Shown here: one piece after another, positions 39,206-63,844 of the stretch
Numbering within the stretch: position 1 is the stretch's first letter
Layout: each line of letters opens with the position of its first letter
Source: Streptomyces mirabilis
GTDB lineage: Bacteria; Actinomycetota; Actinomycetes; Streptomycetales; Streptomycetaceae
DNA: 64,000 bases
Reading direction: 5' to 3'
Assembly: GCF_039503195.1 (NCBI RefSeq)
Contig: NZ_JBCJKP010000001.1
Span: 2,046,001-2,110,000 of the forward strand
Position numbers and translations under genes: made by a program
The notes under the pieces: model-generated
What the model was told of the DNA's origin: nothing
Databases searched by the model: none
The model's input: only the letters and a program-made list of their open reading frames with translations

Positions 39206-39274
39206 GCCGTACTCCGGGGGTGGGAGGAACGTGCCGAAAGGTCACGGGCACGCCCCCCTGCGGAAGGTTGTCGG

Positions 39275-40920: not shown

Positions 40921-40959
40921 GCGGTCTCCCGTCGGGACGGGAGGGGGAGCCGGGGCGGG

Positions 40960-41312: not shown

Positions 41313-41353
41313 GCCGGCTCCAGACGAGGGAGTTGTCTCACATAACACAACGT

Positions 41354-41370
41354 CGATCGCTATGTGCAAC
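41354..41370. promoter_or_regulatory. Operator-like site, degenerate half
   Basis: CGATCGCTATGTGCAAC shares the GCTATG-GCAAC half with the sites over both iclR starts but lacks the left arm. It lies about 40 bases upstream of the flavin reductase fragment. Confidence 0.4.
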
Positions 41371-41439
41371 ATGCTTTCCGTGGCGCCCGGGTGCTGTCAA
41401 GAGGGAGGAGCCGCACATTGGTTCCCGAATGCGCATAGT

Positions 41440-41456
41440 GTTGCGCAGTTCGCAAC
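41440..41456. promoter_or_regulatory. 17-bp inverted repeat, probable IclR operator for the glyA arm
   Basis: GTTGCGCAGTTCGCAAC has perfect 6-bp arms and the same 17-bp span as the sites at 53567, 62964 and 43149. It lies 128 bases upstream of the flavin reductase fragment that heads the gcvH-glyA-sdaA arm, at the 3' end of an unrecognised pseudogene. Confidence 0.7.
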
Positions 41457-41768
41457 GGAAGTCCCTGAAGGGGGCCGGAGCTCCGCCGGTCGGAGCGTCG
41501 GCTCGTCCCACCGGTCCAGCAGGACGTCGACCATGGCTTCATCGAGCCCGGCTTCGGAGGCGTCCAGGGGCAGTTCGCCCCAGACGAGCTGCCGCGGTCG
41601 GTGTACCGCGTGCCCCGGCGCCGGACGAAATGAGCGACAAGGAACAGTCCTCGGCCGCCTTCGCCGGTGGTGGCCACGCAGATACCGCGGGCCGTGATCA
41701 CCTGCGGGTGCCGGGCGAGGACGAAGTGCTCGTCCGGAGATGACCGGACGCTCGATCCGCGCGGTCAC
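41440..41768 (-). pseudogene. Unrecognised gene, frameshifted remnant
   Basis: A GTG at 41768 opens [12 protein letters not shown], then the frame changes to EHFVLARHPQVITARGICVA, TTGEGGRGLFLVAHFVRRRG, then changes again to QLVWGELPLDASEAGLDEAM and VDVLLDRWDEPTL. The three pieces together look like one protein of about 100 residues with two indels. No family was recognised. It sits between the dehydrogenase fragment and the flavin reductase fragment. Confidence 0.4.
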
Positions 41769-41990
41769 AGGAGGACCACCGAGCGCAGGACCTCACCGTG
41801 GTGCATCTCGGCGAACGCTTCCTCCACCTCGTCGAGCGCGACCGCCTCGGGGACGAAGACGCCCAGACCGAAGCGGCCCTGCAGGTAGAGGTCGATCAGG
41901 GCGGGGAAGTCCCGGGAGGGCATGCAGTCACCGCACCAGGAGGGGCTTCCGCCGTGGTGCAGGCAGCGGCCGAGAAGATCTCGGACCGCC
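41765..41990 (-). pseudogene. S-(hydroxymethyl)mycothiol dehydrogenase, C-terminal fragment
   Basis: The minus strand reads [40 protein letters not shown] and [17 protein letters not shown]. This is the C-terminal 70 residues of zinc-dependent, mycothiol-linked formaldehyde dehydrogenases, which end in [11 protein letters not shown]. The zinc site and NAD domain are lost. Demethylating flavoproteins release formaldehyde when folate is limiting, so a detoxifying dehydrogenase makes sense in this island, but this copy is dead. Confidence 0.75.
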
Positions 41991-42142
41991 TCGCCACCTC
42001 CGCCGGGCCTGAGATGCGCGGGTGGACTCCGCAGGTACGTCCACCCGTCGACCGGGACGATCACTCGCGGTCGTGACAGTTGCACACCATCCCTTGACCA
42101 GCCGGTCACCCCCATTGGAGCATGTTGCGCATCACCCACTAC

Positions 42143-42159
42143 GTTGCACGATACGCATC
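42143..42159. promoter_or_regulatory. IclR-type operator upstream of purU
   Basis: GTTGCACGATACGCATC matches the 17-bp pattern with four of five bases in the right arm. A further half site, GTTGCGCATC, occurs at 42124. It lies 24 bases before the purU start and so should block or activate transcription directly. Confidence 0.65.
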
Positions 42160-42182
42160 ACCATGACACGACGGAGGATGCC

Positions 42183-43055
42183 ATGTCCCCTCGACCACAG
42201 CCCGGCCGCGAGTTCGTCCTCACCCTTTCGTGCCCCGACCAGGCCGGCCTCGTCCACGCCGTGACCACCTTTCTCGTGAGCCACTCCGGAAACATCCTGG
42301 AGAGCCAGCAGTTCAACGACCGGCTGCAGGACCGCTTCTTCATGCGGGTGCACTTCGGCGTCTCGGATCCCGACGTCTCGCTGGAGGACCTGCGCACCGG
42401 GTTCGGCCCGGTCGGCCAGGCGTACGGGATCAGCTGGCGGCTGCACGACGCCTCGACCCCGACGCGAACCCTGATCATGGTGTCGAAGTTCGGCCACTGC
42501 CTGAACGACCTGCTCTTCCGCAAATCCACGGGCGCGCTCAACATCGAGATCCCGGCGATCGTCTCCAATCACCGCGACTTCGAGCCGCTGGCGCAGACCT
42601 ACGGTGTCCCCTTCCACCACATCCCGGTGACGAAGGAGACCAAGGCGGAGGCCGAGGCGCGACTGCTGAGCCTCGTCGACGAACTGGACATCGACCTCGT
42701 GGTCCTCGCCCGCTACATGCAGATCCTCTCCGACGACCTGTGCAAGCAGCTCGACGGACGGGCCATCAACATCCACCACTCCTTCCTGCCGAGCTTCAAG
42801 GGAGCACGGCCGTACGTCCAGGCTCACCAGCGAGGCGTCAAGCTCGTCGGGGCCACGGCGCACTACGTCACGCCCGACCTCGACGAGGGCCCGATCATCG
42901 AGCAGGACGTCGTCCGCGTGGACCACTCGCGCGCCCCCGACGAGCTGGTCACCATCGGCCGGGACGTCGAGGCCCATGTGCTCTCCCGCGCCGTGGAGTG
43001 GCACAGCGAGAGCCGCGTGCTGACCAACGGGAGTTGCACCGTGGTCTTCCGCTGA
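42183..43055 (+). CDS. purU: Formyltetrahydrofolate deformylase
   Basis: The 290-residue product has an N-terminal ACT domain (FVLTLSCPDQAGLVHAVTTF, 11-30) and a formyl-transferase fold with IMVSKFGHCLNDLLFR, IPAIVSNHRDFEPLA, and the catalytic Asn/His/Asp set in INIHHSFLPSFKGARPYVQA and GATAHYVTPDLDEGPII. It hydrolyses 10-formyl-THF to formate and THF, releasing folate after the demethylation steps load it with one-carbon units. The ATG follows ACGGAGG. The operator at 42143 and the following iclR gene on the same strand place it in the betaine regulon. A decayed copy of its 5' end is at 59534. Confidence 0.95.
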   Translation: MSPRPQPGREFVLTLSCPDQAGLVHAVTTFLVSHSGNILESQQFNDRLQDRFFMRVHFGVSDPDVSLEDLRTGFGPVGQAYGISWRLHDASTPTRTLIMVSKFGHCLNDLLFRKSTGALNIEIPAIVSNHRDFEPLAQTYGVPFHHIPVTKETKAEAEARLLSLVDELDIDLVVLARYMQILSDDLCKQLDGRAINIHHSFLPSFKGARPYVQAHQRGVKLVGATAHYVTPDLDEGPIIEQDVVRVDHSRAPDELVTIGRDVEAHVLSRAVEWHSESRVLTNGSCTVVFR

Positions 43056-43148
43056 CGGGACGGGCCGTGCGACCACGCGGGCGGCCGGATCCCACCACGG
43101 CCATGACCTTCCGGAAGCCCTGCGAGCCCATGGACCCGACCGCGTATG

Positions 43149-43165
43149 GTTGCGCTATGAGCAAC
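43149..43165. promoter_or_regulatory. Operator overlapping the first iclR start codon
   Basis: GTTGCGCTATGAGCAAC has perfect 5-bp arms, and the ATG of the regulator (43157) is inside it. Binding there would directly block its own transcription or translation start. The same arrangement recurs at 63039. Confidence 0.75.
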
Positions 43166-43954
43166 CACACCGCAGACGCCGAAACAACAGGTCCCGCGGT
43201 GAACGGAGTTCAGTCCGTCGACCGTGCCGTCAGCGTCCTGGAGCTCCTCGCCCAGCGTGGCGAGGCCGGTGTCAGCGAGGCCGCCGCCGAGATCGACGTC
43301 CACAAGTCGACCGCGTTCCGCCTGCTCGGGGCGCTGGAAGCGCGCGGACTGGTCGAGCAGACGGCCGAGCGGGGCAAGTACCGGCTCGGCTTCGGGATCG
43401 TGCGGCTGGCCGGCGCGGTCACGGGCCGCCTCGACATCACACAGCAGGGCCGGCAGGTGTGCGAGCGGCTCGCCGAAGAGATCGGCGAGACCGTCAACAT
43501 CGCGGTCATGCAGGAGCACTACACGGTCAACCTCCACCAGGTACGCGGCCCGGGCGCGATCGGCACGCACAACTGGGTCGGGCAACTCACCCCGGTGCAC
43601 GCCACGTCGAGCGGCAAGGTCCTGCTGGCCCACCTGCCGGCGCAGGAGCGCGCCGACGTGCTCACGGCGTCCGGGATGCAGAAGCTGACGCCGCACACGC
43701 TGACCGTGAGAACGAAGCTGGAGAAGAACCTCGCCGAGGCGCGGGAGCGGGGGTACGCGATGACTCTGGAGGAGTTCGAGATCGGACTGCACGCCGTCGC
43801 CGCCCCGATCCGGGCCCGCGACGGCGAGGTCGTCGCCGCCTTGAGCGCCTCCGGCCCCGCGTACCGCTTCACCGAGGAACGCATCCACGAGCTCGCGCCC
43901 GTGCTGCTCAAGGGCGCGGCGGAGATCAGCCGCCGGATGGGCTATCCGGGCTGA
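43157..43954 (+). CDS. IclR family regulator of betaine catabolism, copy 1
   Basis: The 265-residue product has the IclR winged helix: VQSVDRAVSVLELLAQRGEA, GVSEAAAEIDVHKSTAFRLL, GALEARGLVEQ, and the effector domain with TVNIAVMQEHYTVNLHQVRG, HATSSGKVLLAHLP and AVAAPIRARDGEVVAALSAS. It is about 80 percent like the regulator at 63047 along its length, so the two are recent paralogues. I infer that it binds GTTGC-N7-GCAAC and responds to betaine, dimethylglycine or sarcosine. Its last 13 bases overlap the 3' end of the convergent folP-like pseudogene. Confidence 0.92.
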   Translation: MSNHTADAETTGPAVNGVQSVDRAVSVLELLAQRGEAGVSEAAAEIDVHKSTAFRLLGALEARGLVEQTAERGKYRLGFGIVRLAGAVTGRLDITQQGRQVCERLAEEIGETVNIAVMQEHYTVNLHQVRGPGAIGTHNWVGQLTPVHATSSGKVLLAHLPAQERADVLTASGMQKLTPHTLTVRTKLEKNLAEARERGYAMTLEEFEIGLHAVAAPIRARDGEVVAALSASGPAYRFTEERIHELAPVLLKGAAEISRRMGYPG

Positions 43955-44937
43955 GCCTCGAACGATCCGAGGGACCGTACCGACGCCGCCGCCTCGGCGC
44001 CCCAGCGGGCTGTCACCCGCACCGCGTCGAGCGTCGAGACGACATCGTGCACCCGCAGGCACCAGGCGCCCTGTGCGGCGGCGGGAACGGATACGGCGGT
44101 GGTCGCGGCGTCCCGCAGCCGTGCCGGGCGGGGTTGTCCCGTCACCGGGTCCACCAGCAGCCGGCCCAGGAACGACTGCAGCCGGCCCAGGAACGGCTTG
44201 CGTGACGCGCCCACGAGGACGGGACGGCCCAGCGCGACGATGTCCCCGAGCCGGCCCAGCAGTTCCCCGTTGTGCCCGGACTCCGTGGCGAAGCCCAGCC
44301 CGGGGTCGATGATCAGGCGACCGGGCCGGATGCCCGCCTCCGACGCGGCCTCGATCCGCAGGCGCAGTTCGCCGACCACGTCGGTGACCACGTCGTCATA
44401 GACGGCGTTCGTCTGCATGCCGGCGGCGTGTCCGCGCCAGTGCATCGCCACGTACGGCCTGTCCGCCCGGGCCATGAGCGGCAGCATCGCGGGATCGGCA
44501 AGGCCCCTGAGACGTCGTTGACCAGCCGTGCGCCGGCGTCGAGCACGCGGGTGGCGACCTCGGCCCGCACGGGGTCGACGCTGACGGTCCCGCCCGCCGC
44601 GGTGAGTTGCCGGACGACGGGAAGGACGCCTCGCAGCTCCTCCTCGACCGGCGGGCGGACCGCGCCGAGCGAAGCGAGATGGGGTCCCCCCGGACGGAGT
44701 CTGGGGGAGGGTCGACTCCCCGCCCACGTCCACGCTGTCCGCGCCCTGCTCGAACAGCGCGAGTCCGTGCGCGACAGCCGCTTCCGGAGCGAACGACAGC
44801 CCACCGTCGGAGAACGAGCCCCGGGTGACGTGCACGACGCCCATGACCGGCGTGCGGCCGGACCGTGGCAGGCCGTGCGGGTGGAGTTCGGGCGTTCCCG
44901 GGTGGGGCGGGGTGATGCCGTGAGCCGTGGCGGTCAC
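43942..44937 (-). pseudogene. Dihydropteroate-synthase-family gene, disrupted
   Basis: The N-terminal part (MGVVHVTRGSFSDGGLSFAP, GADSVDVGGEST) and C-terminal part (GIRPGRLIIDPGLGFATESG, LVGASRKPFLGRL, LRVHDVVSTLDAVRV) are a DHPS fold in one frame. The middle (EEELRGVLPVVRQLTAAGGT, LVNDVSGA) is in another frame. The first shift coincides with a small palindromic element at 44670-44711; the second is a missing base near 44506. DHPS joins pterin and p-aminobenzoate for folate synthesis, or in related proteins binds methyl-THF. Here a folate-linked role fits the neighbours, but the gene is broken. Confidence 0.8.
44670..44711. repeat. Small palindromic element in the folP-like gene
   Basis: GGGGTCCCCCCGGACGGAGT followed by CTGGGGGAGG is an imperfect inverted repeat of the kind scattered through Streptomyces genomes. 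It is inserted right after the DVGGEST motif and shifts the frame. A relative lies at 48573-48594. Confidence 0.6.
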
Positions 44938-44986
44938 AGGGTTCCAGCCGTCGAAGCAGAGGACGGAACTTGCTGCACAAAGCCTT

Positions 44987-45013
44987 GTGGGAGCCCCGCC
45001 GAGGGGCTCCCAC
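44987..45013 (-). terminator. Hairpin terminator after the sarcosine oxidase operon
   Basis: GTGGGAGCCCC-GCCGA-GGGGCTCCCAC is a perfect 11-bp stem with a five-base loop, 34 bases beyond the soxG stop. It closes the long minus-strand operon that starts at 53537. Confidence 0.85.
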
Positions 45014-45046
45014 GAGGGCGACGGGGAGCAACCCCGCCGAGGTCGC

Positions 45047-45649
45047 TCAGACGTACTCCGTCGCCGCGTCCAGCAACCAGTCCACCAGATAGCCGGCGAA
45101 GGACGAACGGACCAGTACCCAGAACCCGGCCCTGGGTTCGTCCCGGGAGACCAGGACCACCTGCGTGCGGCCCAGTGTCGTCTGGGCGCAGCGGCCGGAG
45201 CCGAAGGCCCTCGGATGCAGATCCAGCGCGCAGCCGTGCGCCAGCAGGTCGTGGGCGCGGGGACCCGTCACGAGGAGCGTGGTGCGCTGGGCGGAGACGT
45301 CCGTGACGGAGACGGGCTCGTCTCCCGCTGCCTCCCGGATCCGGCTCTCCAGGTCCCGTTCGCTGTCGGGCGTGCCGACCAGCAGCCATTCGTCCGGGCC
45401 GAGCCACAGCACGGTCAATTCCCCGGCGCGTACGACGGTGTTGGGTTCGAGGGGCAGTTGCAGGCCCAGCGCGAGCCCGACGGCGTCCGCCGCCGCGCCC
45501 TTGGCGTCGAGGCGCACGTTGATCTGGGCCAGGAAGGGCAGTTCGGCCAGCCGGATCGCACCCCCTGACGTGCGGGTCACGGCGGCCAGGCGGTCCGCGA
45601 CCTGAGACAAGGGGCTGCGGGGCGGGGCGGTCGGGGCGGTGTCAGCCAT
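45047..45649 (-). CDS. soxG: Sarcosine oxidase gamma subunit
   Basis: The 200-residue product matches SoxG, the smallest folate-domain subunit: AIRLAELPFLAQINVRLDAK, LWLGPDEWLLVG, VSVTDVSAQRTTLLVTGPRA, LAHGCALDLHPRAFGSGRCA and a C-terminal SSFAGYLVDWLLDAA. It assembles with SoxA, SoxB and SoxD in the heterotetrameric enzyme that oxidises sarcosine to glycine, hydrogen peroxide and methylene-THF. Its start overlaps the SoxA stop by eight bases, so it is translationally coupled. Last gene of the operon. Confidence 0.92.
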   Translation of the reverse strand: MADTAPTAPPRSPLSQVADRLAAVTRTSGGAIRLAELPFLAQINVRLDAKGAAADAVGLALGLQLPLEPNTVVRAGELTVLWLGPDEWLLVGTPDSERDLESRIREAAGDEPVSVTDVSAQRTTLLVTGPRAHDLLAHGCALDLHPRAFGSGRCAQTTLGRTQVVLVSRDEPRAGFWVLVRSSFAGYLVDWLLDAATEYV

Positions 45650-48600
45650 CGCGACGGGCTCCCTCGGGGTCGTAAAGGACGGGGCTTGCGACGGTCACCG
45701 GGACCAGCCGGTCGCCGACGGGGGCGTACAGCCGCTCGCCGATGCGGTCCCGGCCGCCCTTGATCAGGGCGAGCGCGAAGGTCCGGCCGAGGGCGGCACT
45801 GCGGTAGCTGGAGGTGACGTGGCCGAGCATCGGGACGGGCGGGGCGGGCAGCTCGCTGTCGGCGACCAGGTGGGTGCCCTCGGGAAGGAAGGTGCCCGGG
45901 TCCTCGGGGAGAAGGCCGACCAAGTGCTTGCGGTCGGCGCGGACGCTGTCGGCACGGGCGTAGGAGCGCTTGCCGATGAAGTCGGGCTTCTTCTTCGACA
46001 CCACCCAGTTCATGCCGAGGTCCTGCGGCGTGACGGTGCCGTCGGTGTCCTGGCCGATGATGGGGTAGCCCTTCTCGGCGCGCAGGACATGCATGGTCTC
46101 GGTGCCGTACGGGGTGATGCCGTACGGGGAACCGGCCTCATGCAGCGCCTGCCACAGGGTGAGTGCTTCCCAGGGGGACACGTTGACCTCGTAGGCGAGT
46201 TCGCCGGAGAAGCTGATCCGGCACACCCTGGCCTCGATGCCCGCGACGGTCGTCTCCCGCCATGCCATGAACGGGAAGTCATCGTTGGCCACGGCCAGTT
46301 GGGGTGCCAGCGCGCCGAGAACGTCACGGGAGCGGGGGCCGACGAGGGCGACGGTGGCCCACTGTTCGGTCACGGACGTGCAGTGGACCCTCAGTTCGGG
46401 CCACTCGGTCTGCAGCCATTCCTCCATCCAGTCCAGTACGACGGCCGCGTTGCCGGTCGTGGTGGTGACCAGGAAGCGGTCCTGGGCGAGGCGGATGACG
46501 GTGCCGTCGTCGAAGACCATGCCGTCCGGGCGGCACATCACGCCGTAGCGGATCATGCCGACCTTCAGCGTGCTCATCATGTTGGTGTAGAGCCGGTCGA
46601 GGAAGACGCCCGCGTCCGGGCCCTGTACGTCGATCTTGCCGAGGGTGGAGGCGTCCATGAAGGCCACCCCGTCGCGGGCGGCGGCACACTCGCGCAGGAC
46701 CGCGGCTGCCATGTCCTCGCCGTCCTGCGGGTAGTACCAGGGGCGCTTCCACTGGCCGACGTTCTCGAAGAGGGCGCCGTGCGCGACATGCCACTCGTGG
46801 ATGGCGGTCGTGCGGACCGGGTCGCTCAGGGCGCCGCGGTCGCGGCCGGCGAGCGCCGCGAAGGAGACTGGCGTGTACGGCGGCCGGAACGTGGTCGTGC
46901 CGAGCGCGGAGATGTCCACGCCGAGCAGTTCGGCGACGACGCCGCTGGCCAGGACCCCGGAGGTCTTGCCCTGGTCGTTGGCGGTGCCCGCCGTCGTGTA
47001 GCGCTTGGTGTGCTCGACCGAGCGCAGACCGGCGCCGGCCGCCCGGGCCAGGTCGTCGATGGTGACGTCGCGTTGGAGGTCGACGAAGCGGGGGGCGTCC
47101 GAAGCGCCGGGGACGACGTACACGTGCATCGCCGGCGTCTGCCGCGGCCGATCGGCCACCGCCGGCAGGCGGGGCGCCTGCGGGGTGTAGCCCTCGGCCT
47201 CGATCGCGCGGGCACCGGCGGCGGCGCCCTGGGCCAGGACCTCGGCCGGATCCAGGACACCGCTCGCACTGCCCACGACCTCGACCGCCTGTCGGCAGGT
47301 GTCCGGCACGAAGGAGCCCAGTGCCTCGTCGTAACGCAGCTTGCCGCCCGACTGGCTGAACAGGTGAGCCACCGGGTTCCAGCCGCCGGAGACCAACAGC
47401 AGGTCGGCCGTGAACTCCCGCTGTCCCACGGACTCTCCGTACGGGGCGACGGTCACCGCGGTGAGCCGCGCGTCGCCCTCCGTACCGGTGACGGCGTGCC
47501 CGGCCACCACCTCGATACCCGCCTGCCGAGCGCGCTGCGCCCACTCTCCCGGTGTGGGGCGGGTGTCGACGATCGCCACGATGTCCACGCCCGCCGCGGT
47601 GAGGTCCAGCGCTGCCGGGTAGGCGCTGTCGTTGGTGGTGAGGACGACCGCGTGGCGGCCGGGCAGCACACCGTGGCGGTTGACGTAGGTGCGGGCCGAG
47701 GCGGCGAGCATGACGCCGGGGCGGTCGTTGTCCGCGAACGCCAGCGAGCGCTCGTGGGCGCCGGTGGCCAGGACGACGCGACGCGCGCGGATGCGCCAGA
47801 CGCGCTCGCGGGAGACGTGCTCGGGGGCGTCGGCACCGAGGTGGTTGGTACGGCGTTCGACGGCGAGGAGGTGGTTGTCGTCGTAGTAGCCGAAGACGGT
47901 GGTACGGCGCAGGACGCGCACCTCGGGGGCGGTGTCGAGCTGCCCGGTGACGTCCGCCACCCAGTCGAGGTGTTCGGCCGTGCCCAGGAGGCTGCCGCCC
48001 AGTTCCGGTTGGTCGTCGGCGAGGATGACACGGGCTCCGCTGCGGGCGGCGGCGGCCGCCGCGGCGAGGCCGGCCGGTCCCGCGCCGACGACCAGCAGGT
48101 CGCAGTGGGCGTGTACGGCGTCGTAGCGGGCGGGGTCCGGTTCGGTGGCGAGGCGTCCCTGGCCGGAGAGGCTGCTCGCGACCAGGCCGTCGTAGAGCTC
48201 GACGGTGGTCGCGGGGAGCATCGGCTCGGGGAAGGGCGCCTCGATCTGGACGACCGCGTTGGGCTCCTCCACACCGGCCGAGAAGATGCCTCGGGGGCGG
48301 CCGAGCTTGATGCTGGTGCCGGCCTCGATGACACCGTTGGCGAGGAGGGCGGAGGCGAGGGTGTCGCCTCGGTGGCCCTGGTACTCGGTGCCGTCGAAGG
48401 TGAAGGTGAGGGGGGTGCCGCGGTGGATTCGGCCGCGGGTGGGGTGGCGGAACGGCTGGCCTGCGGCGGAGCCGCTGATGGTTGCAGCGCCCCCTCCGCC
48501 CCTCCTCGTCCCGTCCTGAAGGGGCTTCGCCTCCTGCGCCCCCGTCGGCCCTGAAGGGGCCTTGTCCTCAAACTCCCCCAGAGGGGGTACCCCCGGACAG

Positions 48601-48899
48601 GCTGAGTGCACCGGGCGGGGCTCAAGCGTCGCCGGGCGTTCCTCACCCGCCCGGTACACCGCCAGGATCTCGTTCGTCGCCGTGTCCCGTACCGCGTTGA
48701 ACCACTTGCGGCAGCCCGCCGCGTGGCTCCAGCGCTCGGCGAAGGGGCCCTTCGGGTTGTCGCGGAAGAACAGATAGCGGGCCCACTCCTGGTCGGTGAG
48801 GGCCGACGGGTCGTCGGGGTAGGGCACGTGGGCCTGGCCGCCGTAGTGGAACTCGGCCTCGTCGCGGGGCCCGCACCACGGGCAGGGGATGAGCAGCAT
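45642..48899 (-). CDS. soxA: Sarcosine oxidase delta-alpha fusion (SoxD-SoxA)
   Basis: One 1085-residue frame joins two subunits that are normally separate. Residues 1-95 are SoxD (MLLIPCPWCGPRDEAEFHYG, with CPWCG as zinc ligands, and AAGCRKWFNAVRD). Residues 95-140 are a low-complexity linker (PSGPTGAQEAKPLQDG, RRGGGGAATISGS). The rest is SoxA: RGDTLASALLANGVIEAGTS, an NAD-binding VVGAGPAGLAAAAAAARSGA, LATGAHERSLAFADND, and a C-terminal GcvT-like folate domain (ISFSGELAYEVNVSPWEALT). No stop, and no obvious SoxA start with a ribosome binding site, separates them. A palindromic element lies in the linker. It should form the sarcosine oxidase core with SoxB and SoxG. Confidence 0.88.
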   Translation of the reverse strand: MLLIPCPWCGPRDEAEFHYGGQAHVPYPDDPSALTDQEWARYLFFRDNPKGPFAERWSHAAGCRKWFNAVRDTATNEILAVYRAGEERPATLEPRPVHSACPGVPPLGEFEDKAPSGPTGAQEAKPLQDGTRRGGGGAATISGSAAGQPFRHPTRGRIHRGTPLTFTFDGTEYQGHRGDTLASALLANGVIEAGTSIKLGRPRGIFSAGVEEPNAVVQIEAPFPEPMLPATTVELYDGLVASSLSGQGRLATEPDPARYDAVHAHCDLLVVGAGPAGLAAAAAAARSGARVILADDQPELGGSLLGTAEHLDWVADVTGQLDTAPEVRVLRRTTVFGYYDDNHLLAVERRTNHLGADAPEHVSRERVWRIRARRVVLATGAHERSLAFADNDRPGVMLAASARTYVNRHGVLPGRHAVVLTTNDSAYPAALDLTAAGVDIVAIVDTRPTPGEWAQRARQAGIEVVAGHAVTGTEGDARLTAVTVAPYGESVGQREFTADLLLVSGGWNPVAHLFSQSGGKLRYDEALGSFVPDTCRQAVEVVGSASGVLDPAEVLAQGAAAGARAIEAEGYTPQAPRLPAVADRPRQTPAMHVYVVPGASDAPRFVDLQRDVTIDDLARAAGAGLRSVEHTKRYTTAGTANDQGKTSGVLASGVVAELLGVDISALGTTTFRPPYTPVSFAALAGRDRGALSDPVRTTAIHEWHVAHGALFENVGQWKRPWYYPQDGEDMAAAVLRECAAARDGVAFMDASTLGKIDVQGPDAGVFLDRLYTNMMSTLKVGMIRYGVMCRPDGMVFDDGTVIRLAQDRFLVTTTTGNAAVVLDWMEEWLQTEWPELRVHCTSVTEQWATVALVGPRSRDVLGALAPQLAVANDDFPFMAWRETTVAGIEARVCRISFSGELAYEVNVSPWEALTLWQALHEAGSPYGITPYGTETMHVLRAEKGYPIIGQDTDGTVTPQDLGMNWVVSKKKPDFIGKRSYARADSVRADRKHLVGLLPEDPGTFLPEGTHLVADSELPAPPVPMLGHVTSSYRSAALGRTFALALIKGGRDRIGERLYAPVGDRLVPVTVASPVLYDPEGARRDG
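48573..48594. repeat. Small palindromic element in the SoxD-SoxA linker
   Basis: CTCCCCCAGAGGGGGTACCC and the next two C residues form nested inverted repeats of the Streptomyces mini-element type, similar to 44670-44711. It encodes part of the linker (VPPLGE), so its insertion may have read through the old SoxD stop. Confidence 0.6.
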
Positions 48900-48910
48900 G
48901 GTTGGGCTCC

Positions 48911-50143
48911 CTAGTGGGCCACCGCGGCAGCGCCGTGCTCGTCGACGAGCGCGCCGGTGGTGAAACGGTCGAGCGAGAAGGGGGCGTTGAGGGCGTGCGG
49001 GGTGTCGTGGGCGATGGTGTGGGCGTAGACCCAGCCCACGCCCGGCGTGGCCTTGAAGCCACCCGTGCCCCAGCCGCAGTTGAGGTAGAGATTGTCGACG
49101 GGGCTGAGTCCGATGATCGGCGAGGCGTCGGGGCTGACGTCCACGATGCCGCCCCAGGTGCGCAGCACATGGGCGCGGGCGAAGACCGGGAAGAGCTCCA
49201 GGGCCGCGGACATCTGTTCTTCGATGATGTGGAAGGCACCGCGCTGGGTGTAGGAGTTGTACGAGTCGATGCCCGCGCCCATCACCAGCTCGCCCTTGTG
49301 CGCCTGGCTGACGTACACGTGGACCGCGTTGGACATGACGACCGTCGGGTGCACCGGCTCCAGCAGCTCCGACACGAGCGCCTGCAACGGATGGCTCTGG
49401 ACGGGGAGTTCGATGCCGGCCATGGCGGCCAGGACCGAGGTGTGGCCCGCCGAGCAGAGTGCCACCTTGCCCGCCGCGATGGGGCCGAGGTTGGTCTGGA
49501 CTCCGACCACGCGGTTGCCGACCATGTCCAGGCCGGTGACCTCGCAGTTCTGGATGAGGTCGATGCCGGCGGCGTCCGCCGAGCGGGCCAGGCCCCACGC
49601 CACGTAGTCGTGCTTGGCGATGCCGGCGCGCGGCTGGAAGGTGGCGCCCAGGACCGGATAGCGCACGTCCGGCGAGATGTTGACGATCGGGCAGACTTCC
49701 TTGACGCCGTCCGCGTCGAGCCACTCCGCGTCCACGCCGTTGAGGCGGTTCGCCTCGACGCGGCGCACGCTGTCGCGGACGTCCTGGAGGCTGTGGGCGA
49801 GGTTCAGCACACCACGCTGGGAGAAGAGGATCGGGTAGTCGAGCTCCTCTCCGAGTCCCTCCCACAGCTTGAGCGCGTGCTCGTAGATGCCGGCGCTCTC
49901 GTCCCACAGGTAGTTGGAGCGGATGATGGTGGTGTTGCGGGCCATGTTGCCGCCCGCCAGCCAGCCCTTCTCCAGCACGGCGACATTGGTGATGCCGTGG
50001 TTCTTCGCCAGGTAGTGGGCGGTGGCGAGGCCGTGGCCGCCGCCGCCCACGATCACCACGTCGTACGAACGCTTCGGCTCGGGCGTGCGCCAGAGGAAAT
50101 CCGGGTGGTCCGGGAGGTCGGCGCCTGGGGTACGGGGGCTCAT
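48911..50143 (-). CDS. soxB: Sarcosine oxidase beta subunit
   Basis: The 410-residue flavoprotein has the FAD loop [20 protein letters not shown] (about 25-44), [40 protein letters not shown] and a C-terminal [20 protein letters not shown]. This is the standard heterotetrameric SoxB, which binds FAD non-covalently and FMN covalently through a histidine. It catalyses the amine oxidation of sarcosine. I start at 50143 (MSPRTPG) with GGAGA upstream. The SoxD-SoxA fusion begins 11 bases after its stop. Confidence 0.94.
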
Positions 50144-50201
50144 CGGACGTCTCCGTCTTCTCAAAGGTACTGATACAGCTGGTGCTTGGGGGCCGTCACA
50201 T

Positions 50202-51062
50202 TCATACGGCGTTCGCGTTCCTCTCGGCGGCCTCGACGACGTTGGCGAGCAGCATGGCCCGCGTCATGGGTCCTACGCCCCCGGGCATCGGCGCGAGCCA
50301 CCCGGCGACCGAGGCCGCGTCCGGGTGTACGTCGCCGACCAGCCCGTGGTCGGTACGGGTGATGCCGACGTCCAGGACCGCGGCGCCGGGGCGCAGCATG
50401 TCCTTGGTGATCAACTCGGGCGAGCCGGCGGCCGCGATGACGATGTCCGCCTCGCGTACGTGCCAGGCCAGGCCCTTGGTACCGGTGTGGCACAGGGTCA
50501 CGGTGGCGTTCTCGGACCTGCGGGTGAGGAGCAGTCCGAGGGGCCGTCCGACCGTGATGCCCCGGCCGATCACACACACCCGTGCTCCGGTGATCGGCAC
50601 GTCGTACCGGCGGAGCAGTTCGACGATGCCGCGCGGGGTGCAGGGCAGCGGGGCTTCGACGCCGAGGGTGAGCCGGCCGAGGCTGACGGGGTGCAGGCCG
50701 TCGGCGTCCTTGGCCGGGTCCATGCGTTCCAGGACGGCGCCTGCGTCCAGGTGGCGCGGGAGCGGGAGTTGGACGATGTAGCCGGTGCAGGCCGGGTCGG
50801 CGTTGAGCTCGTCGATGACGGCCTCGACCTGCGCCTGCGTGGCGTCGGCGGGCAGTTCACGGCGGATGGAGGCGACGCCGATCTGCGCGCAGTCCCGGTG
50901 CTTGCCGCCGACGTAGGCGCGGCTGCCGGGGTCGTCGCCGACCAGGACTGTGCCGAGCCCCGGCGGACGGGCGCCCGTGGCGGTCAACTTGGCCACGCGT
51001 TCGGCGAGTTCGCGGCGGACCGCGGCGGCGGTCGCCTTGCCGTCCAGCAACTGAGCGGTCAC
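50202..51062 (-). CDS. folD: Bifunctional methylene-THF dehydrogenase/cyclohydrolase
   Basis: The 286-residue product has [20 protein letters not shown], the catalytic Tyr/Lys pair in [36 protein letters not shown], and [20 protein letters not shown] for NADP binding. It oxidises 5,10-methylene-THF, the folate product of dimethylglycine and sarcosine oxidation, to 10-formyl-THF for purine synthesis or PurU. The usual family motif GRSxxVGxP reads GRGITVGRP here, a Ser to Gly change. The GTG start lies 36 bases after the dimethylglycine oxidase stop, in the same operon. Confidence 0.93.
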
Positions 51063-51098
51063 CGGCAGTGCTCCTTCTCTCGAAGTCGACGCTGGGTA

Positions 51099-53602
<2,504 letters not shown>

Positions 53603-53684
53603 TCAATGTGCCTGTCGCAGGGAGGGGGTGTCAAGGGGTCCGTGACGTCGGAAAACAGGCCGAAACACCGCCCTGAACACGGCA

Positions 53685-53730
53685 ATGCCCGGCGGGCGGC
53701 GCGCACCTGCACGCACCGCCCGCCGGGCAT
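53685..53730 (-). terminator. Hairpin terminator after proX
   Basis: A perfect 15-bp stem (ATGCCCGGCGGGCGG with its complement) encloses 16 bases. It begins 23 bases beyond the proX stop and ends the betB-proVWX operon, insulating it from the next operon's promoter. Confidence 0.88.
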
Positions 53731-53753
53731 GTCCGACCGGCTCGGGCCTCGGC

Positions 53754-54722
53754 CTACTTGAGCCAGGCGTCCACCTTGTCCTTGTTGGCGTCGACCCACT
53801 TCTTCGCCGCCGCCTCGTCGGTCATCTTGTCCTGGGCGATGTACTTGGCGACGGTGTTCTGGTCGTCGTTCGTCCAGTTGAAGTTCTTCACCAGGTTGTA
53901 GGCGGGGCTGCCCGACTTGGCGAACTTGGCGCTGACGATCTTGTTGAGGTTGTACACGGGATAGTCGCAGGCGATCTTCGCCGCATCGGCGTCACAGCCC
54001 GTCGTGTACGTGGGCAGCGAGACCTTCTTCAGCGGGACCTCGGACAGGAACCACTGCGGCTCGTAGAAGTAGCCGATCACCCACTGCTTGTTCTTCTCGG
54101 CGGTGCGGAAGGCCTGGATGAGCGCGGTCTCGCTGCCCGCGTACACCACCTTGAAGTCCAGCTTCAGGTTCTTCACCAGCGCCGCGTCGTTCGTGACATA
54201 TGACGGGTCGCCGTCCAGGAGCTGGCCCTTGCCGCCCGACTCCGACGTCTTGAACTTCGACGCGTACTTGTTGAGGTTCTTCCATTCGAGGATGTCGGGG
54301 TGCGCCTTGGCCAGCCACGGCGGCACGTACCAGCCGATGATGCCTTTGTTGCCGGTCTGGCCGGCGTCGACGGCGGTCTTCTGGCCGCTGATGTACTTCT
54401 TCGTCAGGTCGGCGTGGCCCCAGTTCTCCAGGACGGCGTCGACCTCGCCGGTGCCGAAGCCCTGCCAGGCGATCTCTTCCTTCAGGTTCTTCTTGGTGAC
54501 CGTACAGCCGAGGTTGTGCTGAGCGACGTACGCGACGACCGCCGCGTCGGCCTCGTAGCCCACCCACGGGTTGACCGCGAGGTTGAACGTGCCGCACTTG
54601 CCGGAGCTGCCCGCGTTGTTCGAGCCCGAGGAGGAGTCGCCGACCTTCGCCCCTCCGCACGCGGTGAGGGTGAGGCCGAGGACGGCCAGGCCGGCCGCGC
54701 CGGCTCGCCAGTGTCTTGCCAT
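53754..54722 (-). CDS. proX: Glycine betaine ABC transporter substrate-binding lipoprotein
   Basis: The 322-residue product has a lipoprotein signal with lipobox LTAC (about 19-22) and the OpuAC/ProX fold: NLAVNPWVGYEADAAVVAYV, EEIAWQGFGTGEVDAVLENW, GIIGWYVPPWLAKAHPDILE, and WVIGYFYEPQWFLSEVPLKK. The Trp and Tyr residues form the aromatic box that binds quaternary ammonium. It delivers betaine, and perhaps choline or carnitine, to ProW. It is the last gene of the operon, 14 bases after proW. Confidence 0.94.
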   Translation of the reverse strand: MARHWRAGAAGLAVLGLTLTACGGAKVGDSSSGSNNAGSSGKCGTFNLAVNPWVGYEADAAVVAYVAQHNLGCTVTKKNLKEEIAWQGFGTGEVDAVLENWGHADLTKKYISGQKTAVDAGQTGNKGIIGWYVPPWLAKAHPDILEWKNLNKYASKFKTSESGGKGQLLDGDPSYVTNDAALVKNLKLDFKVVYAGSETALIQAFRTAEKNKQWVIGYFYEPQWFLSEVPLKKVSLPTYTTGCDADAAKIACDYPVYNLNKIVSAKFAKSGSPAYNLVKNFNWTNDDQNTVAKYIAQDKMTDEAAAKKWVDANKDKVDAWLK

Positions 54723-54735
54723 GGTGTCGTGCTCC

Positions 54736-59314
<4,579 letters not shown>

Positions 59315-59339
59315 GCGCCAAGCCCTTCAGCCGTTATGC

Positions 59340-59356
59340 GTTGCGCATCGTGCATT
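59340..59356. promoter_or_regulatory. IclR-type operator upstream of betB (imperfect)
   Basis: GTTGCGCATCGTGCATT keeps the left arm and three of five bases in the right arm. It starts 26 bases upstream of the betB ATG. Confidence 0.55.
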
Positions 59357-59486
59357 CAATTGCTTGTGGTGGAACACCATGACGAACGCTGCAGACCTAC
59401 GTCAAGGGGTTGGCGGATGACGATTTCGCAAGGGGCCCATCGACCCTTCTCTCTTGACCGATGACCCCATCGAGTCCGCCTATGTT

Positions 59487-59519
59487 GCGTATTGCTCGCC
59501 GAGTTGTGCAATACGCACC
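59487..59519. promoter_or_regulatory. Operator relic with the purU remnant
   Basis: GTTGTGCAATACGCACC (59503-59519) aligns with the purU operator GTTGCACGATACGCATC, and a half site GTTGCGTATTGC precedes it as at the intact purU. It marks a duplicated promoter whose gene has decayed. It might also serve the divergent betB promoter region. Confidence 0.5.
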
Positions 59520-59533
59520 GACGAACGCTGCGC

Positions 59534-59675
59534 ATGTCCCCTCGACCGCAACCTGGCCGTGAGTACGTCCGTTCGGTGATCGGCTCCAGGGCCGTTTCTT
59601 CATGAGGGTTCACTTCGACGTCTCCGGCCCTGACGCGAAGGTGAAAACTCTGCGTTACCGATTCGGTCGCCCCGG
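59534..59675 (+). pseudogene. purU remnant (5' end with internal deletion)
   Basis: It starts MSPRPQPGREYV, the same as intact PurU, then jumps to DRLQGRFFMRVHFDVSGPDA, which corresponds to DRLQDRFFMRVHFGVSDPDV about 30 residues further on. The ACT strand between them is deleted and the frame changes. All of the catalytic domain is gone. It is the trace of a duplicated purU next to the second iclR-containing half of the island. Confidence 0.8.
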
Positions 59676-59689
59676 ACGCCGACCATGGT

Positions 59690-60375
59690 GTCCAAGTGGA
59701 GCCGGTCGAGGACGGCGGGGCGCAGGCCGGGGCTGCCGGCGGAACCGACGTACTCACGCACCAGGGTGCCGTCTGGACGAGGTGCCCCGCTCCGGCGACC
59801 GGTTCGAATTGCGCGCCGGGGACGAGAGCGGCGAGCTCGCGGCCCTTCGCCACCGGGATCCAGGTGTCGTCCTCGCCCAGCAGACGAGCGTGGGGATGCC
59901 GATCCCGCTGCAGCGGCCCTGGATCTCGTCGTCGGCGTGCTCGCCGACGAGCCGGAAGAACGGGGACCCCCACGGTGCCGGCGCGACCGGATCCACCCGG
60001 GCGAGGGCCCGACAGCGGGCGCCGTGCAGCAGAGGGGCCCGCAGGACGACGGCCCCGCCGAAGTCGTGGGCGACCACGAGCGGTTCCCTGAGGCCCCAGT
60101 GGCTCAGGAGCTCGGTGAAGACCCGGCCCTGGGCGGCCAGGGACACGTCCTGGCCCGTCCTTCTCGGAGGTCCCGTAGCCGGGCATGTCCCGGACGAACA
60201 CCCGAGGGTACCGGGCGAGCGGGCGGGCGACCGCACGCCGGACGTACGACGAGAAGGGGGTGCCGTGCAGCAGGACGACCGGTGGCCGGCCGGGGTGGCC
60301 CAGCCGGTCCCAGCGGACGCCCCCGGAGGCGCCGGTATAGGTTCGGGGCAGTCGCCAGTCGGTTTCGGGTGCCAT
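59690..60375 (-). pseudogene. Alpha/beta hydrolase, multiply frameshifted
   Basis: The ATG at 60375 opens MAPETDWRLPRTYTGASGGV, RPPVVLLHGTPFSSYVRRAV and RVFVRDMPGYGTSEK. After that the frame changes to VFTELLSHWGLREPLVVAHD, FGGAVVLRAPLLHGARC, and again to LLGEDDTWIPVAKGRELAAL and AGAGHLVQTAP. The Asp nucleophile (AHDFGG) and His (AGAGH) suggest a haloalkane-dehalogenase or haloacetate-type hydrolase. At least two indels make it inactive. It is downstream of the MTHFR-like gene and overlaps the purU relic region. Confidence 0.75.
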
Positions 60376-60387
60376 GCCCCTCCCGGT

Positions 60388-61224
60388 TCAGTCGCCCAAC
60401 CGGTCCAGCAGGGCACGGCGCCACCGTTCGGTCTCGGCGATCTGGTTGAACGTGAACACGTGCAGGCCCGCCACCCCAGCCGAGGGCGTGGTAAGCGCCT
60501 CGGCACTGCGGGCGAGCAGCCGGTCCGGCGAGTAGCCGCCGGGGGTCGCGAACCGCAGGAACCACGAGGCGTGCCGGGTGAGGAAGCGCGTCGACTCCCC
60601 CACCCCGATCTTCGTCGCCATGGCCAGCAGCTTCGCCCGCTGCACGGGCCCCGCCACGCCCACATGGACGGGCAGGGTGACGTCGCGGCGCCGTATGCGG
60701 CCGACCCAGTCACCCAGCACGCGCGGATCGAAGCAGAGGTTGCTCACGATGTACGTGGCGTGCGTGTGTTTGTCCCACATGGCCTGGATGGTGAGGTCGT
60801 CGTGGATGAGCGGATGGCTCTCGGGATAGCCGGTGATACCGACCCGCGCGAACGGGCTGCCCAGCTCGCTCAGCCTGCGCAGCACCGGTAGCGCCCCGTC
60901 GTAGACCCCGGCCGGCGGATCGGCGTCGCCGGCCGGGACGAAGACGTCGTCGACACCCGTCTCCCGGAGCCGGTCGACGACATCCTTCAGATGCGCGTCG
61001 TCCCGCAGCAGCCGCGCGGGCACGTGCGGGACGACGCGGTATCCGTGCGCCGCCAGCCGGCCGACGAGGTCGAGCGTCGGCTCCAGGCCCTTGACCGGCG
61101 ACGCCGTCACGGTGACGACGACGTCGCGCGGTACATGGGCGAGGACCTTGTCCTCGGCCGTCTTCGCGGGCAGCACCTCGTAGCGGACGCTCGACAACAG
61201 CGCCCGGAACCCTTCGGCGTCCAA
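60388..61224 (-). CDS. Methylenetetrahydrofolate reductase-like protein
   Basis: The 278-residue product has the MTHFR TIM-barrel pattern: YEVLPAKTAEDKVLAHVPRD, TVTASPVKGLEPTLDLVGRL, VDDVFVPAGDADPPAGVYDG, VGITGYPESHPLI, THATYIVSNLCFDPRVLGDW and LPVHVGVAGPVQRAKLLAMA. It is a divergent relative of MetF, as found in other betaine-degrading actinobacterial loci, and may reduce methylene-THF or oxidise methyl-THF from demethylation. It begins (TTG) three bases after the betA stop, so it is co-transcribed with choline dehydrogenase. Direction of the reaction in vivo is not known. Confidence 0.85.
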   Translation of the reverse strand: MDAEGFRALLSSVRYEVLPAKTAEDKVLAHVPRDVVVTVTASPVKGLEPTLDLVGRLAAHGYRVVPHVPARLLRDDAHLKDVVDRLRETGVDDVFVPAGDADPPAGVYDGALPVLRRLSELGSPFARVGITGYPESHPLIHDDLTIQAMWDKHTHATYIVSNLCFDPRVLGDWVGRIRRRDVTLPVHVGVAGPVQRAKLLAMATKIGVGESTRFLTRHASWFLRFATPGGYSPDRLLARSAEALTTPSAGVAGLHVFTFNQIAETERWRRALLDRLGD

Positions 61225-61227
61225 CGT

Positions 61228-62895
61228 CTACCCGGCCTGCTTCTGGGCATCCCGGTATCGGTAGTACGTGGCCTTGGAGGCGGGCAACGGCTCCTTGCCG
61301 AGGATGAGGTCGGCCGCCTTCTCCGCGATCATCATGACCGGCGCGTAGATGTTGCCGTTGGTGACGTAGGGCATCACCGACGCGTCGACGACGCGCAGCC
61401 CCTCCACACCGTGCACCCGCATGCTGGTGGGGTCGACGACCGACATCTCGTCGGTGCCCATCTTGCAGGTGCAGGAAGGATGCAGGGCGGTTTCGCCCTC
61501 CTTGGCGACCCAGGCGAGGATCTCCTCCTCGCTCGCCACGGACGGGCCGGGTGAGATCTCCCCGTCGTTGTACGGGGCCATGGCCGGCTGGTTGAGGAGC
61601 TCGCGGGCGACCCGGATCGACTCGACCCACTCGCGGCGGTCCTGCTCGGTGGACAGGTAGTTGAAGCGCAGCGCCGGGTGTTCCTGCGGGTCCTTGCTCT
61701 TGATCTTCACCGAGCCGATGGCGTCGGAGTACATGGGCCCGACGTGCACCTGGTAGCCATGGCCGCCGGCGGGCGAGGAGCCGTCGTAGCGGACCGCGAT
61801 CGGCAGGAAGTGGAACATCAGGTTGGGGTAGTCCACGTCCTCGTTGCTGCGGGCGAAGCCGCCGGCCTCGAAGTGGTTGGTCGAGGCGGGGCCCTTGCGG
61901 AAGAGCCATTGCAAACCGATGAAGGGCGCGCGCCACTTCGCCATGTACGGCTGCATCGAGACGGGCTGCTTGCAGGCGTACTGGATGTACACCTCCAGGT
62001 GGTCCTGCATGTTCTCGCCGACGCCCGGAAGGTCGTGGACGACGTCGATGCCGAGCGCGCTCAGTTCCTCGGCGTTGCCGACTCCGGAGAGCTGGAGCAG
62101 CTGCGGGGAGTTGATCGCGCCGCCGCAGAGGATGACCTCGCGGGCGCGCACCTGGTGGACCTTGCCGCGGCGCCGGTACTCGACACCGACGGCCTTCTTG
62201 CCCTCGAAGAGGACGCGCGTGACCAGGGCGCGGGTGGTGACGGTGAGGTTGGGCCGCTTCTTCACGGGCTTGAGGTACGCCTTCGCGGCCGACAGCCGGC
62301 GGCCGCGGCTGACGTTGCGGTCGAAGGGGGCGAAGCCCTCCTGCTGGTACCCGTTGACGTCGTCGGTGCGGGGGTGGCCCGCCTCCTGGACGGCCTTGAG
62401 GAAGGCGGTGAACAGCGGGTTGGAGGCGGGACCGCGTTCGAGGACGAGCGGGCCGTCGTGGCCGCGGAACTCGTCGTCGGGGTCGGCCGCGAGACAGTTC
62501 TCCATCCGCTTGAAGTACGGCAGACAGTGCGCGTAGTCCCAGGTCTCCATACCGGCGTCGGCGGCCCAGCGCTCGTAGTCCATGGGGTTGCCGCGCTGGA
62601 AGATCATGCCGTTGATGCTGCTGGAACCGCCCAGCACCTTGCCACGCGCGTGGTAGATGCGCCGATTGCCCATGTGGGGCTCTGGTTCGGACTCGTACTT
62701 CCAGTCGTAGAACCGGCTGCCGATCGGGTAGGTCAGCGCCGCGGGCATGTGGATGAAGACGTCCCACGGGTAGTCGGGCCGGCCGGCCTCCAGGACCAGC
62801 ACCTGGTTGCCCGGGTCGGCGGAGAGTCGGTTCGCCAGTGCACTGCCGGCGGATCCACCACCGACGATGACGAAGTCGTATTGCAGGGGAGCCAT
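61228..62895 (-). CDS. betA: Choline dehydrogenase (GMC oxidoreductase)
   Basis: The 555-residue flavoprotein has the GMC signatures: [20 protein letters not shown] (7-26), [20 protein letters not shown] (about 82-101), [17 protein letters not shown], and a C-terminal [10 protein letters not shown] with the catalytic His and [20 protein letters not shown]. It oxidises choline to betaine aldehyde. The start ATG at 62895 is 68 bases from a perfect 17-bp palindrome that should be its operator. It forms a two-gene operon with the MTHFR-like gene and is divergent from the second iclR. Confidence 0.94.
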
Positions 62896-62963
62896 GGTGC
62901 CTCGTCTCGCTCGCGCCGTAGATACGCGTGGCATGCTAGTACGGGTATCGCTATACGCACTAG

Positions 62964-62980
62964 GTTGCGTGCCACGCAAC
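62964..62980. promoter_or_regulatory. Perfect palindromic IclR operator for betA
   Basis: GTTGCGTGCCACGCAAC has perfect 8-bp arms around one central base, the best site in the window. It lies between divergent betA and the second iclR; a further related half, GTATCGCTATACGCAC, is 19 bases away. Confidence 0.8.
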
Positions 62981-63038
62981 TTGCGCGGTCTACGTTTCGA
63001 CGCTGTTACTTGCGCCGGCGTTGTTTACTGCGCGTATA

Positions 63039-63055
63039 GTTTCGCTATGAGCAAC
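63039..63055. promoter_or_regulatory. Operator overlapping the second iclR start codon
   Basis: GTTTCGCTATGAGCAAC has the ATG (63047) inside it, exactly as at 43149. One base of the left arm differs. Confidence 0.7.
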
Positions 63056-63844
63056 TACAGTCCAGATACTGAAACGACAGGTTCGCAGTCCGGCGGGGTG
63101 CAGTCCGTCGACCGCGCCATCAGCGTGCTGGAGATCCTGGCCCAGCGCGGCGAGGCCGGCGTCAGCGAGGTGGCCGCCGAGATCGATGTTCACAAGTCGA
63201 CCGCGTTCCGGCTGCTCGGCGCCCTGGAGGCGCGCGGTCTGGTGGAGCAGGCGGGCGAGCGCGGCAAGTACCGCCTCGGTTTCGGCATCGTACGCCTGGC
63301 CGGCGCGGTCACGGGACGCATCGACATCACCCAGCAGGGCCGCCCGGTCTGTGAGCGCCTCGCCGAGGAGATCGGCGAGACCGTCAACATCGCCGTCATG
63401 CAGGAGCACTACGCGATCAACCTCTACGAGGTGCGCGGCCCCGGCGCCGTCACCGCGCACAACTGGGTCGGCGAGCTGACCCCGTTGCACGCCACCTCCA
63501 GCGGCAAGGTCCTGCTGGCCCACATGCCCGCCAAGGAGCGCGCCGCGCTGCTGTCGGAGGCCGGCCTGAAGAAGGTGACCCCGCACACGCTGACCTCGAA
63601 GGCGAAGCTCGAGAAGAATCTCGCCGAGGCCCGGGAGCGCGGCTACGCCTGGACTGTGGAGGAGCTGGAGCTGGGGCTCCACGCCATGGCCGCGCCGGTC
63701 CGCGACCGGGACGGAGAGGTCATCGCGGCACTCAGCGCCTCCGGGCCCTCGTACCGGTTCACCGAGGAGCGCATGCACGAACTCGCCCCGGTGCTGGTCA
63801 AGGGCGCGGAGGAGATCAGCCATCGCATGGGCTACCTGGGCTGA
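63047..63844 (+). CDS. IclR family regulator of betaine catabolism, copy 2
   Basis: The 265-residue product is the same length as copy 1 and differs mainly near the N-terminus (SNYSPDTETTGSQSGG) and in the effector domain. The winged helix GVSEVAAEIDVHKSTAFRLL is identical in the recognition helix, so both should bind the same sites. Effector-domain changes such as AINLYEVRGPGAVTAHNWVG against TVNLHQVRGPGAIGTHNWVG could alter the ligand. It is divergent from betA, and its gene ends ten bases before the convergent Rieske oxygenase stop. Confidence 0.92.
   Translation: MSNYSPDTETTGSQSGGVQSVDRAISVLEILAQRGEAGVSEVAAEIDVHKSTAFRLLGALEARGLVEQAGERGKYRLGFGIVRLAGAVTGRIDITQQGRPVCERLAEEIGETVNIAVMQEHYAINLYEVRGPGAVTAHNWVGELTPLHATSSGKVLLAHMPAKERAALLSEAGLKKVTPHTLTSKAKLEKNLAEARERGYAWTVEELELGLHAMAAPVRDRDGEVIAALSASGPSYRFTEERMHELAPVLVKGAEEISHRMGYLG

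Follow-up and report, generated by a model that had tools for sequence, protein, structure and literature searches.

Regulators of the IclR family are described in the main text of PMC8222616 as binding GTT-11-AAC motifs, which in 94 orthologous groups occur in tandem with a spacing of 18-22 nt, and the centres of IclR-family sites are most frequent at positions -3 to +1 relative to the start. The present study deals with sites of this kind in a window of 64,000 nucleotides from Streptomyces mirabilis (positions 2046001-2110000 of a genome of 11.1 Mb; positions below are those of the window unless stated), where genes for choline and betaine breakdown, called here the betaine island, lie together with the regulator genes iclR1 and iclR2. 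The sites share with the GTT-11-AAC subgroup, well represented in Actinobacteria, the 17-bp GTT-N11-AAC geometry, the tandem spacing and the start peak as given in the main text of PMC8222616; the family-weighted profile of our sites agrees with the subgroup consensus GTTYCRYW3RYGRAAC, and their spacing of 19 bp (18 in one promoter family) falls within 18-22 nt. We consider it very likely that these sites are the operators of an IclR-family autorepressor (IclR2, with IclR1 as a related copy), arranged as a 36-bp tandem at all places but iclR1, at which the bound protein would block RNA polymerase until it is released by a compound of the pathway.

GbdR of Pseudomonas is an AraC-family activator of betaine and dimethylglycine catabolism and thus serves an analogous pathway through an unrelated protein. 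TtgV is an efflux regulator with a different operator, the pathway of BhcR differs from choline and betaine breakdown, and a 2010 paper by Lu et al. reportedly offers, by its title, a model in which tetramers bind DNA cooperatively. TtgV belongs to the same IclR family and is present on its operator as a tetramer (PDB 2xro). BhcR (NCBIfam NF045644) is the best NCBIfam model for both proteins studied here, with 193.5 and 202.1 bits against a cut-off of 350. Matches to several IclR-family NCBIfam models cover almost the whole length of both proteins, which are members of the family with its DNA-binding helix-turn-helix and effector domains, and IclR2 aligns with 1mkm_A over residues 20-263 (phmmer, E 6.8e-33). 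Neither of them reaches the curated cut-offs of the PcaR/PcaU/PobR, KdgR, AllR and IclR (glyoxylate bypass) models, the scores being all well below.

In Arthrobacter and Corynebacterium sp. U-96, the genes glyA, soxBDAG, sdaA and purU, leading from sarcosine to pyruvate, are clustered (PMC3534580). The same glyA-sox-sdaA-purU clustering is found in the betaine island, with dimethylglycine oxidase nearby in the pathway; the text of PMC3534580 does not contain the word IclR, and the passages of it that were covered hold no operator. In Streptomyces from sponges, an IclR gene precedes that of a proP transporter (PMC6676996), at a different locus from the betaine island. The words betaine and choline do not occur in the main text of PMC8222616, the supplementary regulon tables lying outside that scan, and no described choline or betaine regulon of this IclR kind was found in the open-access literature searched, with subscription papers outside its scope. 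Hence, the pathway assignment looks new, while the mode of action looks typical of the IclR family. A pathway of soil actinomycetes is thereby given a regulator and an operator, along with a nearly complete regulon that covers the uptake and demethylation of choline and betaine, the disposal of formaldehyde and one-carbon units and the conversion of glycine to pyruvate. Moreover, the 36-bp pattern can be used as a specific probe to predict the regulon genes in sequenced relatives.

The probable tandem operator and its distribution

A first-pass annotation of this DNA had proposed a 17-bp operator, GTTGC-N7-GCAAC or a close variant, at seven places, and all seven are present: the pattern is exact at 41440, 43149, 53567 and 62964, carries one mismatch at 42143 and 63039 and two at 59340. 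The motif is thus real, but the 17-bp unit is only half of the conserved operator, which consists of two 17-bp quasi-palindromes in tandem with their centres 19 bp apart, and every one of these sites except that of iclR1 is half of such a pair. The tandem consensus is GTTGCG-N5-CGCAAC-N2-GTTGCG-N5-CGCAAC (36 bp), usually with one strong and one degenerate copy, and the outer arms are its best conserved part (GTTGC...GCAAC in the family-weighted profile). The perfect arms, put at 6 to 8 bp for the best copies, measure 5 bp (53567) to 8 bp (62964) in the exact ones.

When the matching arm bases of the two copies are counted out of 12 each, the minus-strand operator at 41421..41456 (8+12, including 41440) precedes the unit of a truncated reductase gene, gcvH, glyA and sdaA, and the plus-strand operator at 42124..42159 (9+10, including 42143) precedes purU. 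Three further minus-strand operators stand before the dimethylglycine oxidase-like gene (53567..53602, 11+9), before betB and the genes of the opuA-like transporter (59340..59375, 9+8) and before betA (62945..62980, 8+12, including 62964). The operator of iclR2 occupies 63020..63055 on the plus strand (7+10), its right copy being centred on the ATG, and iclR1 has a single site at 43149..43165 (plus strand) whose left tandem copy is not recognisable (5/12). An eighth operator of the window, absent from the first-pass annotation, was found on the plus strand at 59484..59519 (9+10) before a degraded purU copy.

Among loci whose main site scores at least 9 (for gbcA, 30 of 73 loci were left out by this limit), a spacing of exactly 19 bp separates this site from its best non-overlapping partner in 8 of 9 promoter families, and in the remaining one, fdhA, the spacing is 18 bp. 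The other 59 orderings of the arm letters, with overlapping offsets excluded, bring at most 5 of 9 families to one spacing, with a mean score of at most 7.02 vs 7.81 for the real order; a shuffle of the arms that also counts shifted matches inside the main site reached 7/9 once in 58 shuffles.

With up to two mismatches, the 17-bp motif is not enriched in the whole window (22 matches vs a shuffle mean of 29.5), and little can therefore be read from the loose motif alone; what is informative is the exact form and the way its copies cluster. Exact GTTGC-N7-GCAAC occurs at 11 places in the whole genome, of which 4 lie inside a 22-kb stretch where about 0.014 would be expected (the 7 places outside being taken as background), and the pattern read backwards as a control occurs at 6 places. 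The specificity of the 36-bp pattern is higher, since all 6 distinct places with at most one mismatch in the 11.1 Mb belong to the island; among the 11 matches listed genome-wide at exactly two mismatches, 3 do. Matches with one mismatch go on just past the window end, where five further composite places lie (genome 2111051 to 2117294). The window and its continuation hold 12 promoter places with composites of at least 17/24. The iclR1 site scores 16, a value shared by three more places in 36001-83000; in window positions 1-36000, there is one composite of 16 and one of 17.

The proposed regulon had been expected to fail if the motif were common outside the island, and this was followed up in part with 20 lone outside sites, comprising all 7 exact sites and 13 of those with one mismatch. 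At the tandem spacing, 18 of them have a second copy of at most 5/12, one has 6 and one, inside an open reading frame (ORF), has 8. By a simple rule based on GC3 (GC content at third codon positions), ten of the 20 lie inside ORFs and ten outside, and none of the latter ten has a tandem copy above 5/12. At one locus (L101, 1333-1349), an exact site without a tandem copy was noticed between a pyridoxal phosphate dehydratase-like gene and a PfkB kinase gene, beside another IclR gene; it is probably the operator of that other neighbouring regulator. No Rfam model matched at its gathering threshold in 37000-64000.

Phylogenetic footprinting was done on 80 loci with an iclR2 homolog, the best 80 of 267 confirmed relatives, most of them with the same gene order, and the counts for operators also include the window or its continuation. 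As unconfined counts mix two operators at iclR2/betA and purU/betB, which is evident from their median offsets, the search was confined to each gene's own side of the shared intergenic region. The counts thereby became lower for betB (58 to 43 of 69), iclR2 (79 to 52 of 81), fdx (73 to 72) and fadh (4 to 3), which weakens the argument without overturning it. A site of at least 10/12 stands before betA in 69/69 loci (12/12 in all), dmgo (dimethylglycine oxidase) in 50/50 (11/12 in all), fdx in 72/73, purU in 46/47 and fdhA in 6/6. Within 250 bp upstream plus 15 bp of internal genes, such a site is found for opuAA in 0/64, opuAC in 0/63, mbl in 0/55, opuAB in 0/49, metF in 1/54 and red in 1/75, and the numbers at 9/12 or more are 0 for opuAA and mbl, 2 each for opuAC and opuAB, 1 for metF and 6 for red; folP, folD, soxG, soxB, soxA, sdaA, glyA and gcvH were each represented by just 1 to 3 upstream regions. 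In 265-bp stretches drawn at random from these loci, such a site turns up in 7% of cases. The sites are thus found before first genes and nearly never before internal ones, as would be expected of operators.

Among 61 genomes of the genus, five or more matches to the 36-bp pattern are found in 11, one or two in 4 and none in 46 (matches counted on both strands, five or more corresponding to roughly 4 to 7 distinct places). IclR homologs with an identity of 70% or higher are present in exactly those 11 genomes and in 0 of the 50 others, and homologs of 48-60% identity only are present in 16 other genomes of the 61. The island-exclusive composite operator, the footprinting and this co-occurrence strongly support the earlier idea of one regulon. 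The tandem pair extends to a distant family, f26, with IclR proteins 50-58% identical, in which it lies at 19 bp in 22 of 31 loci, mostly beside purU and betB homologs.

An extra tandem operator (11+6) that has no evident gene to itself lies 65 bp upstream of the fdx operator at one locus (L012, 3747-3782), and a second pattern match about 100 bp from an fdx-type operator was also seen in three of the genomes (G009, G013 and G033).

The start-codon sites and the two IclR proteins

In both regulator genes, the A of the start codon ATG is the exact centre of a 17-mer, at 43149-43165 for iclR1 (43157..43954, plus strand) and at 63039-63055 for iclR2 (63047..63844, plus strand). In the iclR1 clade, exact GTTGC-N7-GCAAC covers the start in 10 of 11 loci, the present one included (the exception being L148), without the left copy that most iclR2 relatives carry. 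In both genes of the window, six bases lie between the ATG and a preceding TATRGT box, namely the putative -10 boxes TATGGT at 43145..43150 and TATAGT at 63035..63040 (plus strand). Six bases is the usual distance from a -10 box to the transcription start, and the iclR transcripts are probably leaderless, as judged from the sequence; with such transcripts, an operator at the transcription start would necessarily lie over the start codon. The direct autorepression at the start codon proposed earlier is well supported by conservation as far as the placement of the operator over the start is concerned, and the repression itself may be supposed from this position.

Among 52 distant homologs, GCAAC is intact after the start in 26, and of these, 16 carry at least 4/5 and 24 at least 3/5 of GTTGC at -8 to -4, the joint frequency being an upper estimate because the start codon was chosen by the best arm match, which favours both arms. 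The N-terminal tail up to the helix-turn-helix (HTH) varies from 6 to 24 codons in the distant homologs. It is conceivable, though we put it at somewhat below even, that the DNA need for a start-codon operator has fixed Met-Ser-Asn across actinomycete families while the rest of the tail drifted in length and sequence, and that the paralog pairs, with one tandem and one single operator and the same recognition helix, form a two-sensor circuit with unequal self-repression.

The recognition-helix region is identical in IclR1 and IclR2, and 59 of 64 HTH residues are the same, which partly supports the earlier proposal that both paralogs govern the island jointly. On the other hand, 4 of the 11 genomes (G022, G024, G033 and G040, three of these four assemblies being in many contigs) show a single close homolog and still keep the operators, with a further homolog of 58% identity in G024, and in relatives iclR1 is found beside a second gene module. 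As the operators persist with one close homolog, one protein appears to suffice for the regulon, and IclR2 is probably its principal regulator. In the tree, the iclR1 clade of 12 sequences has a support of 0.96 and the other IclR clade 0.85, with 0.46 at their joint node, and iclR1 may accordingly have arisen either by duplication or by transfer.

Proposed mechanism and competing explanations

Among loci with composites of 15 or more, the distance from the first base of the -35 TTGAC to the beginning of the operator is 29-33 bp in most loci of six promoter families and 35-37 bp at fdhA; betB has 27 bp in 4 loci, and gbcA has no TTGAC in 5 and a farther one in 3. Since the operator is so placed in these seven families, it would cover the transcription start, and the bound protein would block RNA polymerase. 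The tandem pair is most simply explained as the footprint of two dimers, making up a single tetramer, bound to the same DNA face. A compound of the pathway would then release the repressor, and the genes so expressed would carry choline through betaine, dimethylglycine and sarcosine to glycine and on to serine and pyruvate, with disposal of formaldehyde and one-carbon units.

Several observations weigh against this reading. Position 4 is Y in the family consensus in the main text of PMC8222616 and G in most sites here (GTTGC). At 10/12 or more, the own sites are weaker for iclR2 (52/81), betB (43/69), gbcA (32/73) and fadh (3/62), the counts at 9/12 or more being 78/81, 65/69, 43/73 and 58/62. 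No TTGAC stands upstream of the operator at betA (69 loci) and iclR2 (81 loci), and these promoters are therefore read from the -10 alone. In one genome with the homolog (G049), one pattern match, at 9330701, is far from its island. The right arm is not intact in 26 of the 52 distant homologs, of which 11 have a left arm of at least 3/5, and the choice of start codons mentioned above favours a match of both arms. Finally, the spacing is less uniform at a distance, as f26 has the pair at 20 bp also or instead in 11 of 31 loci and none at 19 bp in 9 of 31, and 19 other distant loci show it at 19 bp in 7 and at 18 bp in 2.

The proteins could also be activators of the pathway genes that repress only themselves. 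Some members of the family do activate, and a 2006 review cited in PMC6676996 reportedly treats them, by its title, as activators and/or repressors; as the first base of the operator is in 7 of 9 promoter families mostly 29-37 bp from the -35 start, so that it overlaps the transcription start instead of lying upstream, we regard activation as improbable. A division of labour, in which IclR1 and IclR2 control different subsets and share the motif through relatedness and not through one regulon, deserves more attention and is unlikely but a serious contender. It would fit the separate iclR1 clade, whose members stand in relatives beside a separate module that has fadh, gbcA, red, gcvH or glyA genes to itself, and it would fit the single operator of iclR1 against the tandem one of iclR2. 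The near-identity of the two HTH domains, with the same recognition-helix region, speaks for a common operator, and the single-homolog genomes point the same way, as G024, G033 and G040 keep a match of the dmgo-operator type and G022 shows others.

For the start-codon sites, GCAAC might reflect nothing but coding conservation of Met-Ser-Asn, inherited by both paralogs. The two genes are related and have these residues in common, and the left arm is mostly GTTTC, not GTTGC, in the iclR2 relatives (73 of 106 near relatives). This arm, however, precedes the start codon and yet retains at least 4/5 of GTTGC in 101 of the 106 near relatives and in the 16 of 26 distant homologs counted above; the tail between Met-Ser-Asn and the HTH changes in length, and the sole distant Met-Ser-Asn start with a different Ser codon (L138) lacks the left arm. 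A purely coding origin is accordingly very hard to credit. That the motif is a chance or generic one unrelated to IclR has a point in its favour in the count at up to two mismatches, no higher in the window than in shuffles, but it is practically negligible in view of the clustering of exact sites, the footprinting, the island-only 36-bp pattern, the arm-ordering control and the homolog co-occurrence.

Genes of the island and degraded modules

Within the window, betA (choline dehydrogenase, 61228..62895, minus strand) and purU (formyltetrahydrofolate deformylase, 42183..43055, plus strand) score above their NCBIfam cut-offs, as do soxB and dihydropteroate synthase. For betB (betaine-aldehyde dehydrogenase, 57845..59314, minus strand), which has opuAA, opuAB and opuAC downstream, the best model is TIGR01804 with 594 bits, below the cut-off of 669. 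The dimethylglycine oxidase-like gene (51099..53537, minus strand, likely start 53537) has an oxidase plus GcvT-like make-up, is followed downstream by folD, soxB, soxA, soxG and folP, and gives, like opuAC and the metF-like gene (methylenetetrahydrofolate reductase-like), weak or below-cut-off matches. Past the window end, the island goes on with a Rieske oxygenase (Pfam Rieske and Ring_hydroxyl_A), a reductase, a ferredoxin, a metallo-beta-lactamase-fold hydrolase, an alcohol/formaldehyde dehydrogenase-like protein and a molybdopterin oxidoreductase. The names of the reductase, ferredoxin, hydrolase, formaldehyde dehydrogenase, soxA, soxG, folD, opuAA, opuAB, gcvH, glyA and sdaA were read from translations. 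The gene set as a whole reads as a putative route from choline to pyruvate plus one-carbon disposal.

The operator including 41440 stands before a ferredoxin-reductase remnant, aligned over residues 1-107, then gcvH, glyA and an sdaA-like gene (38210..41309, minus strand). In 5 of 8 relatives examined (L164, L165, L167, L169 and L171), a site of 11/12 or 12/12 precedes the red gene followed by gcvH and/or glyA, with a weak second copy of 6 to 8 of 12, and the arrangement was not seen in the other three (L166, L168 and L170); here the reductase is truncated, yet the operator is kept before gcvH-glyA-sdaA. The interval 40900-42140 holds remnants of a reductase and a formaldehyde-dehydrogenase-like gene, and this second catabolic module is more complete in L164, L165, L167 and L171.

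A full-length-like purU (at least 70% of the length in one piece) lies between betB and metF in 46 of the 80 relatives' loci. In the window this interval has a degraded copy (59484-59700) that keeps its tandem operator, the remnant at 59534..59679 (plus strand) consisting of tblastn pieces of 15 and 38 aa, and the intact purU is at 42183 instead. Also in the betB-metF interval, a minus-strand frame at 59356-60375, overlapping the purU remnant region, appears to be a broken alpha/beta hydrolase gene. A folP-like dihydropteroate synthase gene (43942-44937) lies beside the sarcosine oxidase genes, in several relatives as well, and perhaps supplies folate for demethylation.

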